Both the position numbers and the translations under genes were made by a program. A stretch of 19,105 nt of DNA from an uncultured bacterium (GTDB lineage Bacteria > Patescibacteria > ABY1 > SG8-24 > 2-12-FULL-60-25). Numbering within the stretch: the first letter of the stretch is position 1; each line of letters starts with the position of its first letter. Shown here in pieces: positions 3,413 to 14,366 of this stretch. The stretch spans positions 1 to 19,105 of the forward strand of contig CALMET010000166.1 of NCBI GenBank assembly GCA_937863195.1, written 5' to 3'. The notes under the pieces were generated by a model. That model was not told the origin of the DNA and did not search any database. It saw only the letters and a list, made by a program, of their open reading frames with translations.

Positions 3413-4618
3413 TTAGAGTAAGGTTGCCTGTTCACCATCGATCGTGGCATGGACGGTGCCGTCTCGCAAACGCAGGCTGATACGGTCGCGTGCTTTTAAG
3501 GCCTGGGCTGAAGTGATGATGGCGCCCTTCGCGTCTTCGATAATGGCATAGCCACGCGCAATAACCGCGTTTGGATCAACGGATTTTAAGAACCGTTCAT
3601 ACCCGTCGATTCTTTGGAGGAGGTTTTGCAACCAGTGACTTGCTCGTGACTCTGCCGCCACCGTCAGTTCTTGAGATTTATGGAGGACGGACACCAGCCA
3701 CTTATCAACATCCGTAAAGACATTGCGGATAGCCTGTGTATATTCGTCGATCATATTTTGCATCCCATCCCCTACGGATTCTTGGAGCGTTGAAAGCTCA
3801 TAGAGAATGTCGGCTTTGTCAGGGACAAGGCGACGAGCACAATCGGTTGGCGTTGAGCCTCGGATATCAGCGACTTCTTCGGCGAGCGAGATATCACGTT
3901 CGTGGCCAATAGCCACCATGGTTGGGACTTTTGACGCATAGAGCGCGCGTACAAGCGCTTCGTCATTAAAGGCCATAAGCTCATCAAATGAACCTCCGCC
4001 ACGTGTCATCACGAGCGCATCATAGTACCCGGCACCAAAGGCTTTTTCTCGTGCGTGAATTTCTTTAAGCGCTTTCATGATACTTCCCGGCGCTTTGTCA
4101 CCTTGAACGACAACGTGAAAAAGTTCGATCTCGAGACCTGACCAGCGTTCATTGAGAATACGAATAAAATCCCCATACGCCGCGGACTCGCGCGAAGCCA
4201 CGAGTGCAATACGTTTTGGAAAGCGTGGCAATGAACGTTTGCGCGAAGCATCAAATAATCCCTCCGCGTCTAAACGGGCGCGTAGTTGAGCGAGGGCTTT
4301 TTTGATGGCGCCCTCCCCCACCAATTCTAAACGATCAACCGTAAATGAAAATTTACCAAACTTCGGATAGATACGCGGCGAACCATAGACGCGCACCTTC
4401 ATCCCATCTTCAAGCGGCCCGCGGAGTTTTGGTGCAACCATAAAGGCCGAGATCAGCGCACCGTCGTCTTTAATATCAAAATTCACCCACTGCCCTTGGG
4501 AAATGCGAAAACCCGACACCTCACCTTCGATTGCGACGGCATCGCCGTCCCAAATCGCCTTGAGCGTATCGTTTACATAACTCACGAAGTCCGTGACGGT
4601 AAAAAGCTGGGGCATCAT
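3413..4618 (-). CDS. xseA: Exodeoxyribonuclease VII large subunit
   Basis: A 401-aa protein, complete and close to family length. Residues 5-100 form the N-terminal OB-fold (VTDFVSYVNDTLKAIWDG, VAIEGEVSGFRIS, GQWVNFDIKDD). The catalytic Exonuc_VII_L domain follows, with GLFDASRKRSLPRFPKRIALVAS (120-142), the conserved RGGGSFDELMAFN (206-218) and IGHERDISLAEEVADIRGSTPT (237-257), then a long helical region (about 265-350) that carries XseB and a C-terminal RGYAII segment. Role: processive degradation of single-stranded DNA in repair. The start ATG at 4618 overlaps the capA stop in an ATGA junction, so translation is probably coupled to an envelope gene. A second Met follows immediately. Confidence 0.97.
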   Translation of the reverse strand: MMPQLFTVTDFVSYVNDTLKAIWDGDAVAIEGEVSGFRISQGQWVNFDIKDDGALISAFMVAPKLRGPLEDGMKVRVYGSPRIYPKFGKFSFTVDRLELVGEGAIKKALAQLRARLDAEGLFDASRKRSLPRFPKRIALVASRESAAYGDFIRILNERWSGLEIELFHVVVQGDKAPGSIMKALKEIHAREKAFGAGYYDALVMTRGGGSFDELMAFNDEALVRALYASKVPTMVAIGHERDISLAEEVADIRGSTPTDCARRLVPDKADILYELSTLQESVGDGMQNMIDEYTQAIRNVFTDVDKWLVSVLHKSQELTVAAESRASHWLQNLLQRIDGYERFLKSVDPNAVIARGYAIIEDAKGAIITSAQALKARDRISLRLRDGTVHATIDGEQATLL

Positions 4619-5706
4619 TTCACTAGGATCCTGCCAGACCGTACCCCGTCTGCCAAATCAGCGTCAGAGCGCTTGGCGAGCTCTTCGAGACGCAGGCGTT
4701 TTGCCTCACCCTCGAGTAAACGCGGTTGACTCACATCAATACGTATCGGGTAGAGCTCGATCGCGCGCACTTCGTTCTCAACAAGCTCAAAGGATGCTGC
4801 TAATCCATAGCGTGTTTCTTCGGACCAGTCTTGATCAAAGATAAAATTACCCAATGACCAGAGAATTGGTTTGCCTTTATAGGTCGAGGCACCTTGAGAC
4901 CAATGCGGATGACCACCGATCACGACATCAATACCTTGATCAATAAGCCACTCAGCCATTGCTACCGATGACTCGTCAGGTTTTGCTCGATACTCAGAAC
5001 CCCAATGCAGATACGCCACCAAAAGGTCATTATCTCCTTTGGCTTTTTTGATAATCGCTTCTGCATCTTTTTTGACGATGGGATTGTCTGTTGAATTCCA
5101 TCCCAAAAAGGCGACGCGTGTTTTGCCGATGGTGGTTGTTGCAAGAGCGACATCACCATCTTCGACTTGGTCACCAAAAGCAAGCAGACCAACCTGCTTC
5201 AAACGTGCCATTGAATCCGCATAGCCAGCACGACCTTGGTCGAGGGCGTGATTATTCGCCTGTGAAACGGCATCAATCCCCTGCTTCTTCAAGATCTCGG
5301 CCCAGGCCGGCATAAAAAGAAAGTCGATGCTTTTGACCGGCGAACGGCGAACATCCGTGACAGGTCCTTCAAGATTACCAACGGAATAATCAAAAGATCC
5401 CAACCAACCCAATGGGAGCTTCGCAAAAGGATAGGCCGGATCTTTTGATGCTACCGTGCGGGTTTGGACGGTGCGATCAAGCATAATATCACCGATAAAG
5501 AGCACGGTCGTGGTCACGACGGGTTTGATCACTTCTATTGGGTCTGACTTTGGAGGAGGTAAAACAATGAGTCCAGCGCTACGATCTGTCGGCGTAGGAT
5601 ATACGGGAGCCAGGACGGGTTTTTGTGAATAGACATTAAACGCAAAAAGACCCGCTACCACAACAATAACGAGACTAGAGATTCCAAAGATGGATGAAGA
5701 GCGCAT
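4615..5706 (-). CDS. CapA/PgsA-family metallophosphatase-like envelope protein
   Basis: A 363-aa protein. Residues 7-25 form an N-terminal signal-anchor, followed by a Pro-rich spacer (30-60), so the catalytic domain is outside the membrane. The PF09587 (PGA_cap) motifs are all visible: FIGDIMLDR (70-78), GNLEGP (110-115), QANNHALDQG (149-158), YLHWGSEY (232-239), IGGHPHWSQG (263-272) and SLGNFIFDQ (284-292). These supply the Asp/Asn/His metal ligands of a calcineurin-like fold. Members take part in poly-gamma-glutamate or capsule synthesis; the substrate here is unknown and no capBC is present. The start overlaps the end of the upstream 4-TM gene by 32 nt, and the stop overlaps xseA by 4 nt. 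Confidence 0.9.
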   Translation of the reverse strand: MRSSSIFGISSLVIVVVAGLFAFNVYSQKPVLAPVYPTPTDRSAGLIVLPPPKSDPIEVIKPVVTTTVLFIGDIMLDRTVQTRTVASKDPAYPFAKLPLGWLGSFDYSVGNLEGPVTDVRRSPVKSIDFLFMPAWAEILKKQGIDAVSQANNHALDQGRAGYADSMARLKQVGLLAFGDQVEDGDVALATTTIGKTRVAFLGWNSTDNPIVKKDAEAIIKKAKGDNDLLVAYLHWGSEYRAKPDESSVAMAEWLIDQGIDVVIGGHPHWSQGASTYKGKPILWSLGNFIFDQDWSEETRYGLAASFELVENEVRAIELYPIRIDVSQPRLLEGEAKRLRLEELAKRSDADLADGVRSGRILVK

Positions 5707-10423: not shown

Positions 10424-11173
10424 TTATTCGATGGTCACCGAGATCATCTTCACTTCTTCGTTTGGACGGTCAGATGAATTGCGCGCAACAGCGGCGATTT
10501 TGTCTGCGACATCTTGGCCGGTAACGATTTTGCCGAAGATGGAGTAGTCAGGTGGGAGCGGATAGTCTGCCACCATTAAGAAGAATTGGGAGCCATTGGT
10601 ATTGCGACCGGCATTCGCCATAGCGATGAAGCCTTTTTTGTAGGTGGATTCGTTTACAGGATCGTTATCGAACTTGTAGCCAGGACCGCCCATGCCGGTA
10701 CCCGTAGGGTCGCCGCCTTGAATCATGAAACCTGGGATGACGCGGTGAAAAATGGTGCCGTTATAGAACCCTTCTTTTACGAGGTAAACGAAGTTTGATG
10801 CCGCGCGAGGACCCATGGTCGGGTCAACTTGCACAACGATATCGCCAAGCGTGGTTTGAATGCGAACTTTTTTGGTGGACTCTTCTTTAGAGAGGATGCC
10901 AGGAAAAGCGTAGGTCATAGGTTTTGTCGGAGTGGTGGAGGTTACCGTGGATGAAGTGGTGCCAGGGACGGTTGAAGTCGTGGTTGCAGTGGACGTCGCT
11001 GTTTCAGTCGAGGTCGCATAAGGGTCAACCATGGTACTCGTTGGATTACTTGGACGGTTTTGACCGTATTGCAAGTTGAGGGTGTTTTCTGGAGCGCCTT
11101 TTGGGGCGCCGCAGCCGGCGCCAAGCAAGATGAGCGCGGCAGCCGAGGCTAAGAGAGGTGCGGATTGCTTCAT
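10424..11173 (-). CDS. Lipoprotein peptidyl-prolyl cis-trans isomerase, cyclophilin type
   Basis: 249 aa from the ATG at 11173. The start was chosen because it gives a clean type II signal peptide ending in LGAGC (Cys21); the frame is open upstream to 11266 but that extension is not signal-like and lies in the preceding gene. A Ser/Thr/Pro linker (about 25-85) is followed by a complete cyclophilin domain (about 102-249): TIFHRVIPGFMIQGGDPTGT with Arg144 and Gln152, GFIAMANAG and NGSQFFLM, which carry the catalytic and proline-pocket residues. It should catalyse prolyl isomerisation, folding secreted proteins outside the membrane. It has its own promoter and terminator, so it is a single-gene unit. 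Confidence 0.95.
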   Translation of the reverse strand: MKQSAPLLASAAALILLGAGCGAPKGAPENTLNLQYGQNRPSNPTSTMVDPYATSTETATSTATTTSTVPGTTSSTVTSTTPTKPMTYAFPGILSKEESTKKVRIQTTLGDIVVQVDPTMGPRAASNFVYLVKEGFYNGTIFHRVIPGFMIQGGDPTGTGMGGPGYKFDNDPVNESTYKKGFIAMANAGRNTNGSQFFLMVADYPLPPDYSIFGKIVTGQDVADKIAAVARNSSDRPNEEVKMISVTIE

Positions 11174-11181
11174 AGACGTAC

Positions 11182-11210
11182 AAGATACAAAGCTAGCGCT
11201 CCCAAGGCAA
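11182..11210 (-). promoter_or_regulatory. Promoter of the cyclophilin gene
   Basis: On the minus strand TTGCCT (11205-11210), a 17-nt spacer and TATCTT (11182-11187) form a good sigma70-like promoter. The ATG at 11173 lies 8 nt after the -10 box, so the mRNA would be leaderless or nearly so. The promoter overlaps the last codons and TAG stop of the MetK-like gene. Confidence 0.5.
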
Positions 11211-12173
11211 GACATTATCTGTCGCATGGGCATATTGCTCGCTTGCAAGCAATAACGAGGGCTCATTCCATCCTGCGGGCGGGCGCGAGAGGTCGCAGCG
11301 TTCGAGATCTACCAGTGAGGCGAGGTTGCGCCCAGCGTGGTCGATAGCGCGAACGCTCCGCGGCTTCGCCTCAAGCGGAAACCAGTCCAGTTCAATCGCA
11401 ACAGCTTCAAGATTTTGTGATTTGAGTAATTCGCGTGCGATCGCGCGTGCATACCACTGGCCTAAATTTGTAGGATGCATGAGCTCTCGCCCACTCCCCT
11501 GAAGAGCACTTGGCATTCGTGCAAAAGAAATCGCTCGCTGTTGTCGCGAAGCACCTGTGCGACGCATGAGACTGTGCACGCCTTGCTGACAAATGACATC
11601 AACCTCAAGCGGTTTGGATGAAGGGATATTTGAGAGTAACCCTGCAAAGCGCGCACGGACTTCATCTGGCGTCACACCGTCTGAGTGAATGACGCTGGCC
11701 TGCAGGCGGCGCTTATCACCATCGTCAGCGACGGCGATTGAATAGTCTGAGGTGAGCCAATACCAATCAGGATCTTGTTGCCGTTTTTGTTCGAGGGCGC
11801 GAATGCAGGCGATAGCAAACGCGTGGGCGTCTGGCCAAAGCAACGATGACCCCGATGAAGCGACGCTGACGGCTGTCCAAGGTTCGGCACCACCAAAGGC
11901 GCGAGGCTCGGCCATGGCTTCGATTGAGATAAATGGCTCGGCCTGCAGAGAGGGGTCGATGCGGCCAAGCTCGCGACGAATCACCGCCGAGACATCAAAA
12001 TCAGCCGTCGACGACACGTTGCCCGTTACAAAAAGGGCGCCATGCCCGCCAGAAACGCGAATATCCAAAAGGGCGCCGCTATCGCGACGGAGGTATTCTT
12101 CGGCAATGGCGGCCGCAATTGCGTCACATACTGCATCCGAATCTCCAGGTCCGCTTACCCGTGCCCAGGCCAT
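11193..12173 (-). CDS. Divergent MetK-like protein (S-adenosylmethionine synthetase homologue)
   Basis: A 326-aa protein (MetK is about 380-400). Read against E. coli MetK from memory, it aligns in order over its whole length. Residues 4-70 (RVSGPGDSDAVCDAIAAAI, LRRDSGAL, TGNVSSTADFDV) match the VSEGHPDKI...GEITTSAWVDI region. Residues 105-180 (LLWPDAHAFAIACIRALEQK, VADDG, VTPDEVRARF) match the middle domain. Residues 206-275 (TGAS, SGRE, GQWYARAIARELL, EAKPRSVRAI) match the GLTGRK...SGKDP...AAYAARYVAKN...AEPTSI region, and the end LPWER matches FPWEK. Signatures are degraded: GHPDK reads GDSDA, GAGDQG is missing, and the Lys of LRPDAK and the RK of LTGRK are not kept. It may have lost or changed its activity. 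It starts 23 nt after the helicase stop, with an AAGG site 9 nt upstream. Confidence 0.72.
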   Translation of the reverse strand: MAWARVSGPGDSDAVCDAIAAAIAEEYLRRDSGALLDIRVSGGHGALFVTGNVSSTADFDVSAVIRRELGRIDPSLQAEPFISIEAMAEPRAFGGAEPWTAVSVASSGSSLLWPDAHAFAIACIRALEQKRQQDPDWYWLTSDYSIAVADDGDKRRLQASVIHSDGVTPDEVRARFAGLLSNIPSSKPLEVDVICQQGVHSLMRRTGASRQQRAISFARMPSALQGSGRELMHPTNLGQWYARAIARELLKSQNLEAVAIELDWFPLEAKPRSVRAIDHAGRNLASLVDLERCDLSRPPAGWNEPSLLLASEQYAHATDNVLPWER

Positions 12174-12196: not shown

Positions 12197-13591
12197 TTAA
12201 AGATCCTCAATAGACCGTAAGAATGTTTTATCAGGGCCGTTTTTAGGGGTTGCGTCCTTCTTTTTCCAGAGCGTGGTGGTGCTTGGTTTCTCATTCGTCG
12301 GCTTGGCGCGCCATGAGGGGCGACGCTCGCCAAAACCATCGAGTTGGATCACTTCATCTTCGGCAAATCCGTCACCATCGTCACTCGAATCGTTAAAGCG
12401 CGATGCTGAACGAGGGCCGGCAGAAAATCGTCCTTCGCGTAATTCGCGTTTTTCAAAAAGTTTTGACGAGACTTCTTCGATAAAGGTTGATGGCTGGCAA
12501 AATGAGAGCGTGTCATAGCCCGTCGTCATCGGATACGTTAAAAACAACTGACGTCGCGCACGCGTCACCGCTACATAAAAGAGACGACGTTCTTCTTCTA
12601 TCCCCTCTTCTGACGAGAGCGCGCGAGCGCTTGGGAATGATTGATCGGTAAGATGGATAATAAATACGGTGTCCCACTCTAACCCTTTGGCTTGATGGAT
12701 CGTGGACAGAATCATCCGCTCTTCATTTGGTCGCGCGGATTGTTCACGCGTAGTGACCGCTTCATCGTAAAGCGCGATATCACCCAAAAACGCATCAAGC
12801 TGCTCATAGCTCTCGGCAAAACTCGCTAATTGCTCGAGGTCTTCAAGACGTTCGCGATAGTTTGGATATTCGCGTTCAAGATGATCTTGATATGTTGAGC
12901 TCGTCACCGCGCGAATAAGCACTGATGGTAAAAGCCCACGCTCTTGAGCATCGTTCAAAATCGTTACGAGATCAGTAAAGCCGACTTTGCCGCGAGATGG
13001 CACGCGCAAAGGGGCGCCAGGCAATAGAGCATCGGTGATCGTATCAAAGGTTTTTAATTGGTGGACGAGTTCTGAAGCTGTCGTTGCACCGATACCCACT
13101 TGCAAGCCCAAAATACGCAGCCAGGCGATTTCATCTTTTGGATTATTGATGACGCGCAAAAAACAGAGAACGTCTTTAATGTGTGCGCGATCAAAAAACT
13201 TTTGCCCACCACGATATTCGTACGGGATATCACGACGAATTAATTCAAACTCAAGCGTCTGTGAATGCGAACTTGATCGAAACAATACGGCCATGTTCGC
13301 AAGCGCGGTCCCTTGGCGACGCTGGTTCAAAATCTCATCCGCCACAAACTTCGACTCTTGGCTAGCTGATGAACACGAAACGAGTACAGGCTTTGAACCA
13401 TGCTCACGCAGCGCTGTTAGGTCTTTATGAAACTGATCAACATTGTGTTCAAGCGAAGCGTTTGCAAGATCTAAAATCTCCGGCGTTGAGCGGTAGTTTG
13501 TTAGCAATTTAAAGGTCTTTGCGTCCTTCCAGAGCTTTGGGAAGGCGAGAATGTTTTGGACATCCGCGCCACGAAAGCCGTAGATCGACTG
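12197..13591 (-). CDS. UvrD/PcrA-type DNA helicase, C-terminal part (after frameshift)
   Basis: The downstream segment of the broken helicase gene, read from CAG at 13591 (the frame is open up to 13633, but those codons are off-frame sequence). It starts with motif III QSIYGFRGADVQNIL and continues with LLTNYRSTPEI (motif IV region), the 2A/2B region (FFDRAHIKDVLCFLRVINNP), motif V STIHQAKGLEWDTVFI followed by QSFPSARAL, and motif VI EERRLFYVAVTRARRQL, which has the arginine finger. The tail is charged and ends PDKTFLRSIEDL; such tails bind RNA polymerase or other partners in PcrA. Joined to the upstream segment it gives about 720 aa, normal for UvrD/PcrA. There is no ribosome-binding site for independent translation here. 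Confidence 0.92.
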   Translation of the reverse strand, partial: QSIYGFRGADVQNILAFPKLWKDAKTFKLLTNYRSTPEILDLANASLEHNVDQFHKDLTALREHGSKPVLVSCSSASQESKFVADEILNQRRQGTALANMAVLFRSSSHSQTLEFELIRRDIPYEYRGGQKFFDRAHIKDVLCFLRVINNPKDEIAWLRILGLQVGIGATTASELVHQLKTFDTITDALLPGAPLRVPSRGKVGFTDLVTILNDAQERGLLPSVLIRAVTSSTYQDHLEREYPNYRERLEDLEQLASFAESYEQLDAFLGDIALYDEAVTTREQSARPNEERMILSTIHQAKGLEWDTVFIIHLTDQSFPSARALSSEEGIEEERRLFYVAVTRARRQLFLTYPMTTGYDTLSFCQPSTFIEEVSSKLFEKRELREGRFSAGPRSASRFNDSSDDGDGFAEDEVIQLDGFGERRPSWRAKPTNEKPSTTTLWKKKDATPKNGPDKTFLRSIEDL

Positions 13592-14366
13592 CATCGTCCC
13601 CCACCGCGATGATATTGCCATGTACTCGGGCAATCGCTTTTACGATACGTGCCTGTACGGTATTCGTATCTTGAAACTCATCAACGAGAACATACTTAAA
13701 CCGACTACTAATGCGTTCACCTAAGATTGGATCTTCAAAAAGTCCGGCGGTATTGGTGAGCAGGTCATCAAAGTCCATTACGTTGGCGTCTTTTTTGCGT
13801 TGGTGATATTGCACCGCGATCTCTTCGATCTTACTGACACAATGCAAAAAATTTGGATGCTTGGCTTCAAGCACATCAGAAAAATTCTGCTGCGTATTGC
13901 GCGCATACGAGATGACATCCGAGACAACGTTTTTGGATGGGAAGCGTTTGTCTTTAGTATCAATCCCCACATCTTTCATCACCGCCTTAATCAAATCTTT
14001 TGCGTCGTCGGCATCTAGAATAGTGAATGAGCGATTATACCCCATCGATTCGGCGTACATACGCAAAAAACGTGAACCTACCGAATGAAACGTACCGCCC
14101 CAAATACCACGGGCACGATCGCCAAGCACACCTTCAACGCGCTCGGTCATCTCGCGCGCGGCTTTATTGGTAAACGTTAAAAGCAAAATCTCATCTGGAG
14201 CAACGCCCTTCTCGATCAAATACGCAACGCGATAGGTTAAGGTACGCGTCTTACCAGAGCCGGCACCGGCTAAAACGAGACAAGGCCCATCACCATGCAA
14301 AACAACTTCAAGCTGCTCTTGGTTGAGCGCTTTCGCATAATCAATAGGACCCATTAAGGACGACAT
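13509..14366 (-). CDS. UvrD/PcrA-type DNA helicase, N-terminal part (frameshifted)
   Basis: The upstream segment of an SF1 3'-5' helicase. It starts LNQEQLEVVLHGDGPCLVLAGAGSGKT (Q-motif and Walker A, Lys39) and has LLLTFTNKAAREM (motif Ia), GTFHSVGSRFLR (Ib), the 1B region and VDEFQDTN (Walker B, 228-235). It is genuine down to GNIIAVGDD (250-258), where the frame is lost; the last 27 residues to the stop at 13509 are off-frame. UvrD/PcrA unwinds DNA in excision repair and removes stalled complexes. CPR genomes normally need this enzyme, so a sequencing error is a real alternative to gene loss. It starts 21 nt after the mltG stop, and a weak TGA-TATCGT box lies 6 nt upstream of the ATG. Confidence 0.94.
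   Translation of the reverse strand: MSSLMGPIDYAKALNQEQLEVVLHGDGPCLVLAGAGSGKTRTLTYRVAYLIEKGVAPDEILLLTFTNKAAREMTERVEGVLGDRARGIWGGTFHSVGSRFLRMYAESMGYNRSFTILDADDAKDLIKAVMKDVGIDTKDKRFPSKNVVSDVISYARNTQQNFSDVLEAKHPNFLHCVSKIEEIAVQYHQRKKDANVMDFDDLLTNTAGLFEDPILGERISSRFKYVLVDEFQDTNTVQARIVKAIARVHGNIIAVGDDAVDLRLSWRGCPKHSRLPKALEGRKDL
13589..13598 (-). other. Frameshift site in the helicase gene
   Basis: The minus strand reads GAC-GAT-G-CAG. GAC-GAT gives the DD of GDD in the first frame and CAG gives the Q of QSIY in the second. Family members read GDDDQSIY or GDADQSIY, so one codon is reduced to a single G. Deleting AC from GAC-GAT-GAC-CAG gives exactly the observed sequence, so a 2-nt loss is the simplest explanation. 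Removing one G from the preceding GGGGG run would instead give AVGTMQSIY, which does not fit the family. Confidence 0.9.

Follow-up and report, generated by a model that had tools for sequence, protein, structure and literature searches.

The window, by which we mean the whole 19,105-nucleotide stretch of DNA analysed here, probably carries a positional orthologue of metK, the S-adenosylmethionine (SAM) synthetase gene, that has lost its active site stepwise and would now be kept as a non-catalytic binding or scaffold protein, in a role that does not depend on SAM synthesis by the cell itself. On the strength of the sequence comparisons below, we put the probability of this reading at about 0.6. 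MetK is among the most conserved enzymes and is usually essential. The gene in the window belongs to a single clade, here called eroded, whose members are kin to MetK, share its predicted fold, have lost ligand residues, occupy a fixed locus, keep open frames and survive in genomes where no MetK was detected.

Kinship with MetK and erosion of the ligand site

The initial annotation had taken the protein for a full-length relative of MetK, and this was borne out by an N-domain match to PF00438 (29.1 bits, under the curated cut-off of 33.1) together with a predicted three-domain MetK fold (Table 1). Against TIGR01034 the protein scored 21.4 bits, again under the curated cut-off (309.4). Among the matches listed in the structural search, which had been proposed as a check, no fold other than that of MetK appeared. 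The archaeal-type SAM synthetase profile PF01941 gave no match to the window protein at E <= 10, and a single one of 20 family members reached E 0.29. In the protein database searches scoring was limited to the 7998 candidates with most shared words; some relatives carry the label 'S-adenosylmethionine synthetase'.

Table 1. Features of the window; positions are those of the whole stretch.
Feature	Position	Strand	Remark
Eroded MetK-fold protein gene, 326 aa	11193..12173	-	ATG at 12173, stop at 11193; Pfam N domain, predicted fold
GPGDSD in place of GHPDK, residues 8-13	12135..12152	-	Asp11 where MetK has the catalytic His; metal Asp retained as Asp13
GGAEPW, residues 94-99, at the GAGDQG loop position	11877..11894	-	Alignment with MetK
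Ser145 at the PDxK Lys position (E. coli K166)	11739..11741	-	Alignment with MetK
Gln211-Gln212 at the LTGRK Arg-Lys position (E. coli R245 K246)	11538..11543	-	Alignment with MetK
GSGRELMHPT, residues 226-235, at the FSGKDPSKVD position; His233 at the Lys270 place	11469..11498	-	
C-terminal LPWE, residues 322-325	11199..11210	-	Inherited from MetK
Cyclophilin-type peptidyl-prolyl isomerase gene	10424..11173	-	Downstream neighbour
uvrD/pcrA helicase gene	12197..14366	-	Upstream neighbour; frame broken in window (two ORFs)

With E. coli MetK as the alignment reference, we compared 16 positions that contact ATP, PPPi, methionine or metal; sites are given in E. coli numbering, which we take to be that of the UniProt MetK entry. 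Residue roles were moved over from the human enzyme, as given in the available parts of PMC7271947 and PMC6850014, by a constant numbering offset worked out by hand. In the available part of PMC7271947, Glu70, Gln113 and Asp258 contact methionine, Asp179, Ser247, Arg249 and Phe250 contact ATP, and catalysis involves, among others, His29, Glu57, Lys181, Arg264, Lys265, Lys285, Lys289 and Asp291, with Glu57 forming an inter-subunit salt bridge with Arg264. Two fragments (L021, L044) were left out of the comparison, and the group tally also left out L018 and L019 (both partial), L111 and L112, so that it shows four genomes with both eroded and intact copies where the actual number is six. L118 was counted as intermediate in the ligand tally and left out of both the intermediate and the eroded sets for per-site conservation; A2 is without P0001, and A3 without P0001, P0015, P0080 and P0082.

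The mean number of ligand residues kept was 15.48 in intact sequences (n=48, a group that takes in second copies, E. coli and the odd L085), 10.47 in half-eroded sequences (n=34) and 3.51 in eroded ones (n=37, range 1-5). The half-eroded sequences are a chosen set: 36 family-profile matches from outside the order scoring at least 189 bits were fetched, 33 of them half-eroded and three intact, and G321 was added. The window protein retains two of the 16, the metal aspartate and the PDxK aspartate, and the erosion described in the initial annotation was confirmed, with the GHPDK histidine, the GAGDQG loop, the PDxK lysine and the LTGRK arginine-lysine pair all replaced. At H15, K18, K166, R245, K246, K266 and K270 it has D, A, S, Q, Q, R and H, and the methionine residues E56, Q99 and D239 are replaced by N52, M87 and R205. 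Across the eroded clade a mean of 0.54 of the three methionine-binding residues remains. Compared with MetK/methionine adenosyltransferase (TIGR01034; PF00438, PF02772, PF02773; human MAT1A/MAT2A), the protein is thus alike in collinearity, predicted three-domain fold and C-terminal PWE (present near the C-terminus in 33 of 37 eroded sequences), and the two share ancestry and, in sampled related lineages, the same locus; it differs in its ligand residues and in falling under both profile cut-offs.

The former triphosphate site appears to have changed from basic to mostly neutral. Of the six basic ATP/triphosphate sites, eroded sequences keep K or R at 1.19 on average, and none of the 37 has either residue at the K166 position, where 23 have E or D; such a site would be suited to a ligand that is neutral or cationic, perhaps scavenged SAM. 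The protein may still bind some ligand, since D17 (29/37), E56 (as E or D, 29/37), D164 (26/37) and H15 (22/37) are kept in many eroded sequences. Among half-eroded copies, E43, the counterpart of human Glu57, is lost in 31 of 34, oftener than most other sites. In one group of ten, E56, Q99 and D239 are lost from every copy while D17, K18, D164, K166, F231 and K246 are kept in every copy and H15 and R245 in nine; E43, D119 and D272 are likewise lost in all ten, which speaks against a clean methionine-first erosion.

These patterns bear on the possibility that the protein is a re-purposed enzyme, its pocket acting through new catalytic residues on a different substrate, be it a nucleotide, a polyphosphate or a cationic ligand. 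The ten half-eroded relatives resemble what would be expected of an ATP- or triphosphate-using intermediate, E26, R30, D58, F59, E79, F81, E85 and W137 occur in at least 34 of 37 eroded sequences and in a minority or none of intact MetKs, and human MAT variants with reduced SAM formation retained phosphatase activity, according to the available part of PMC6850014. However, the phosphate side was not left untouched in the ten, the basic sites are mostly lost from the eroded clade, and six of the eight residues (E26, R30, D58, F59, E79, F81) are already present in at least 32 of 33 intermediates, suggesting structural roles. We therefore regard such an enzyme as possible but unlikely. Features conserved in the eroded clade comprise helix 1 (C16, D17, E26, R30, D31), the turn G42-G45, ADFD (57-60), EPF..E (79-85), W137/W139, R243 and the C-terminal PWE; several of these are probably structural inheritance from MetK.

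Locus, descent and constraint

The eroded gene has uvrD on one side and a cyclophilin gene on the other. In the fetched flanks, which vary in length and whose neighbours were labelled by BLAST to the window's genes, cyclophilin was found beside 37/37 eroded and 30/34 half-eroded copies, and uvrD beside 33/37 and 5/34, respectively. One or other gene was present in the flanks of seven of 48 intact copies, and those seven lie near the split in the tree. Both neighbours are part of a longer conserved gene block (gpmI, nth, PAP2, mltG, uvrD ... C39-like, xseA), so the shared gene order speaks for common ancestry more than for a pathway, and we dropped the adjacency as a clue to function. The uvrD/pcrA gene of the window is split over two overlapping frames, with a break near 13509-13633 on the minus strand; in relatives such as L001 it is one frame of ~720 aa, and the break is either a sequencing error or real. 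A promoter and terminator scan gave no signal above shuffles.

Phylogenetic analysis used a 95-row tree that leaves out 28 named loci (for a shorter run, with near-copies and long branches avoided) and in which the root was not inferred. A branch supported at 100/100 sets the eroded rows apart, and the half-eroded and eroded rows together are all split from the intact and second copies, again at 100/100, with partial support for the branching order among half-eroded groups. The simplest account of these sequences is one in-place metK lineage that was progressively eroded. The window groups with three Uhrbacteria loci, and the named protein nearest to its own is P0004, labelled Magasanikbacteria. 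Among 19 related loci from named genomes, the label is Uhrbacteria for 11 and Patescibacteria, Parcubacteria or bacterium for the others; all 19 genomes fall in the order of G008, which we take as the scope of the window's kin. We also noted a long, very divergent MetK on a very long branch (L085 in G099, from 2921 onwards, at least 392 aa, GLSGKK for GLTGRK), in a genome with a better MetK match elsewhere.

The frame is open in all 37 eroded copies (301-344 aa). Five eroded pairs were close enough for NG86 dN/dS to be tried, the window being in none of them; three gave values, 0.05 for G025/G026 at dS 1.24, and 0.13 and 0.19 for two further pairs in which dS exceeded 1.6 and was hence saturated. 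Both the intact frame and the action of selection, as initially proposed, were thereby upheld, and the neutral substitution that would mark a decaying gene was not seen in the three pairs with a value. The eroded protein nevertheless diverges faster than its neighbours. In a comparison of 160 shuffled pairs from the eroded set, fewer after filters, its mean identity was 38% against 57% for UvrD (lower in 122/122 pairs), and it fell below cyclophilin (53%) in 153/158 pairs, below the C39-like protein in 88/102 and below the CapA-like protein in 47/50; it also diverges faster than the canonical copy in 14/15 pairs from the six genomes with both. Constraint is therefore moderate, and judged from these sequences the gene is constrained, less so than its neighbours. 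That the gene is decaying and on its way out would agree with the stepwise loss of residues and the faster divergence, but its open frames, low dN/dS and retained predicted fold make this a disfavoured and extremely improbable explanation. A genuine decaying copy looks quite different: in G023 the in-locus eroded gene is open, and all that is left of the canonical copy is a broken remnant. This remnant (L044, about 4525-4860) lies in pieces in different frames.

Distribution in the order and SAM supply

We surveyed 41 genomes of the order, a set that includes MAG assemblies, comes with no completeness figures and does not contain the window's own genome. The eroded gene is present in 38 (partial at contig ends in G018 and G019), which are all 38 with a MetK-profile match. 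Canonical metK scored over cut-off in six of the 41, and in G014 a piece of canonical metK lies at a contig end. All 41 have RsmH, which scored over cut-off in 40 and is in fragments in the other, and TrmD passed its cut-off in every one of the 41, which argues that the absence of metK is not mere assembly loss. Most genomes of the order thus have SAM-dependent enzymes without a recognisable synthetase, with import as the likely source of SAM. EamA transporters were uninformative as candidate importers, as they occur in 41/41 order genomes and 14/14 controls alike. For the three genomes without the gene (G020, G036, G032), the profile search, run without a positive control, found none; G020 and G036 also lacked a cyclophilin match (with G001 as the positive control), which may mean that their assemblies do not include the locus, and the G032 contig stops upstream of cyclophilin and showed no MetK-like tail. 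Archaeal-type synthetase (PF01941) scored over cut-off in two of the 41, as L154 in G004, which also holds an eroded copy, and as L155/L156 in G032. Two wider samples were drawn evenly from the larger class, in which the order may be under-sampled: a MetK-profile sample of 191 genomes (124 with a match, 107 over cut-off) and a family-profile sample of 380 (229 with a match, by score mostly ordinary or half-eroded MetK).

The ubiquity of RsmH and TrmD in genomes that mostly lack another synthetase, together with the open frames, is what a divergent yet working SAM synthetase with a rebuilt active site, supplying the cell's SAM, would predict. Nearly all catalytic residues are lost, however, such an enzyme would be needless beside the intact second metK or archaeal-type enzyme of some genomes, and import could supply SAM instead, as in Rickettsia according to the available part of PMC5615194. 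We consider a working synthetase highly improbable.

An intact second metK occurs together with the eroded gene in six order genomes and with a half-eroded gene in 10 of 34 others. The second copies do not form a single clade: the label requires at least two changes on starred branches and three to four in bootstrap trees, and the second copy of G341 pairs with the intact copy of G088 at 100/100, so that more than one origin is likely on the present tree. Five second copies (L088, L145, L147, L149, L152) have Arg for Lys18 (GHPDR) and Trp at F231 and keep the remaining 14 checked residues; the four of them placed in the 95-row tree cluster together with support. The eroded and canonical copies of G025 share a single contig (1.5 Mb), as do those of G026 (1.2 Mb), which contamination does not explain. 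Coexistence in six genomes would allow the protein to be a regulatory or activating subunit of canonical MetK, like the prozyme of trypanosome SAM decarboxylase, and dead-paralogue activators are described in the available part of PMC6221367. Yet the gene occurs in 38 of 41 order genomes against six with canonical metK over cut-off, and more than 100 kb separates the two genes in G025 and G026. As co-occurrence is lacking, a subunit role is very unlikely.

Proposed history and significance

Our preferred reading, a metK orthologue kept for non-catalytic work, would start from an ordinary metK at the uvrD-cyclophilin locus, whose active site was eroded stepwise while frame, fold and place were retained. 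The resulting protein most likely no longer makes SAM, because the triphosphate site is lost, the gene is kept in genomes without MetK and other SAM synthesis enzymes exist in some. It would persist as a MetK-fold protein, probably still an oligomer, with its former inter-subunit pocket stripped of most triphosphate-binding lysines and arginines, and its present role may be in binding or as a scaffold, apart from the cell's own SAM synthesis. Of the three functions first offered, a variant synthetase and a regulatory subunit thus became unlikely, the one for want of basic sites and the other because most gene-bearing genomes of the order show no canonical MetK. Re-purposing stood; the nucleotide ligand suggested with it is not indicated for the eroded clade and would fit the half-eroded relatives better. 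A bolder and rather improbable version sees the orthologue as a pseudoenzyme that became core throughout the lineage, having acquired a second role before catalysis was lost, and as a candidate SAM sensor or carrier in SAM-importing cells.

Known systems offer partial parallels. MAT-beta belongs to another fold family, whereas the eroded protein itself has the MetK fold. As the regulatory subunit of human MAT, MAT-beta illustrates one possible role, that of a non-catalytic partner (available part of PMC6850014). The prozyme of trypanosome S-adenosylmethionine decarboxylase is likewise a retained, dead relative of a SAM-pathway enzyme, but it activates a live paralogue, as far as the available part of PMC6221367 goes, while in most genomes of this order no live MetK is seen. 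In Rickettsia, another host-dependent lineage in which SAM synthesis was lost, the available part of PMC5615194 states that SAM is imported and that metK is pseudogenised in most species; there the gene is reported broken, whereas here it keeps its frame and predicted fold as the active site goes. SAM-binding proteins are the subject of a review (PMC1282579). Titles and the openings of abstracts, with subscription papers and preprints outside their range, contained no recognised description of such a protein or of the lineage's SAM supply.

Taken together, the alignments suggest that a SAM-synthesis gene probably lost its catalytic residues stepwise, was kept intact in the same place across a lineage of tiny bacteria and now does a different, non-catalytic job. 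Because living lineages hold intact, half-eroded and fully eroded copies at a shared syntenic position, the stages between enzyme and pseudoenzyme can be followed one by one. The finding also bears on SAM supply in Patescibacteria, since most genomes of the order have methyltransferases and no recognisable synthetase, and it warns that database labels of 'S-adenosylmethionine synthetase' may overstate the metabolism of these bacteria.
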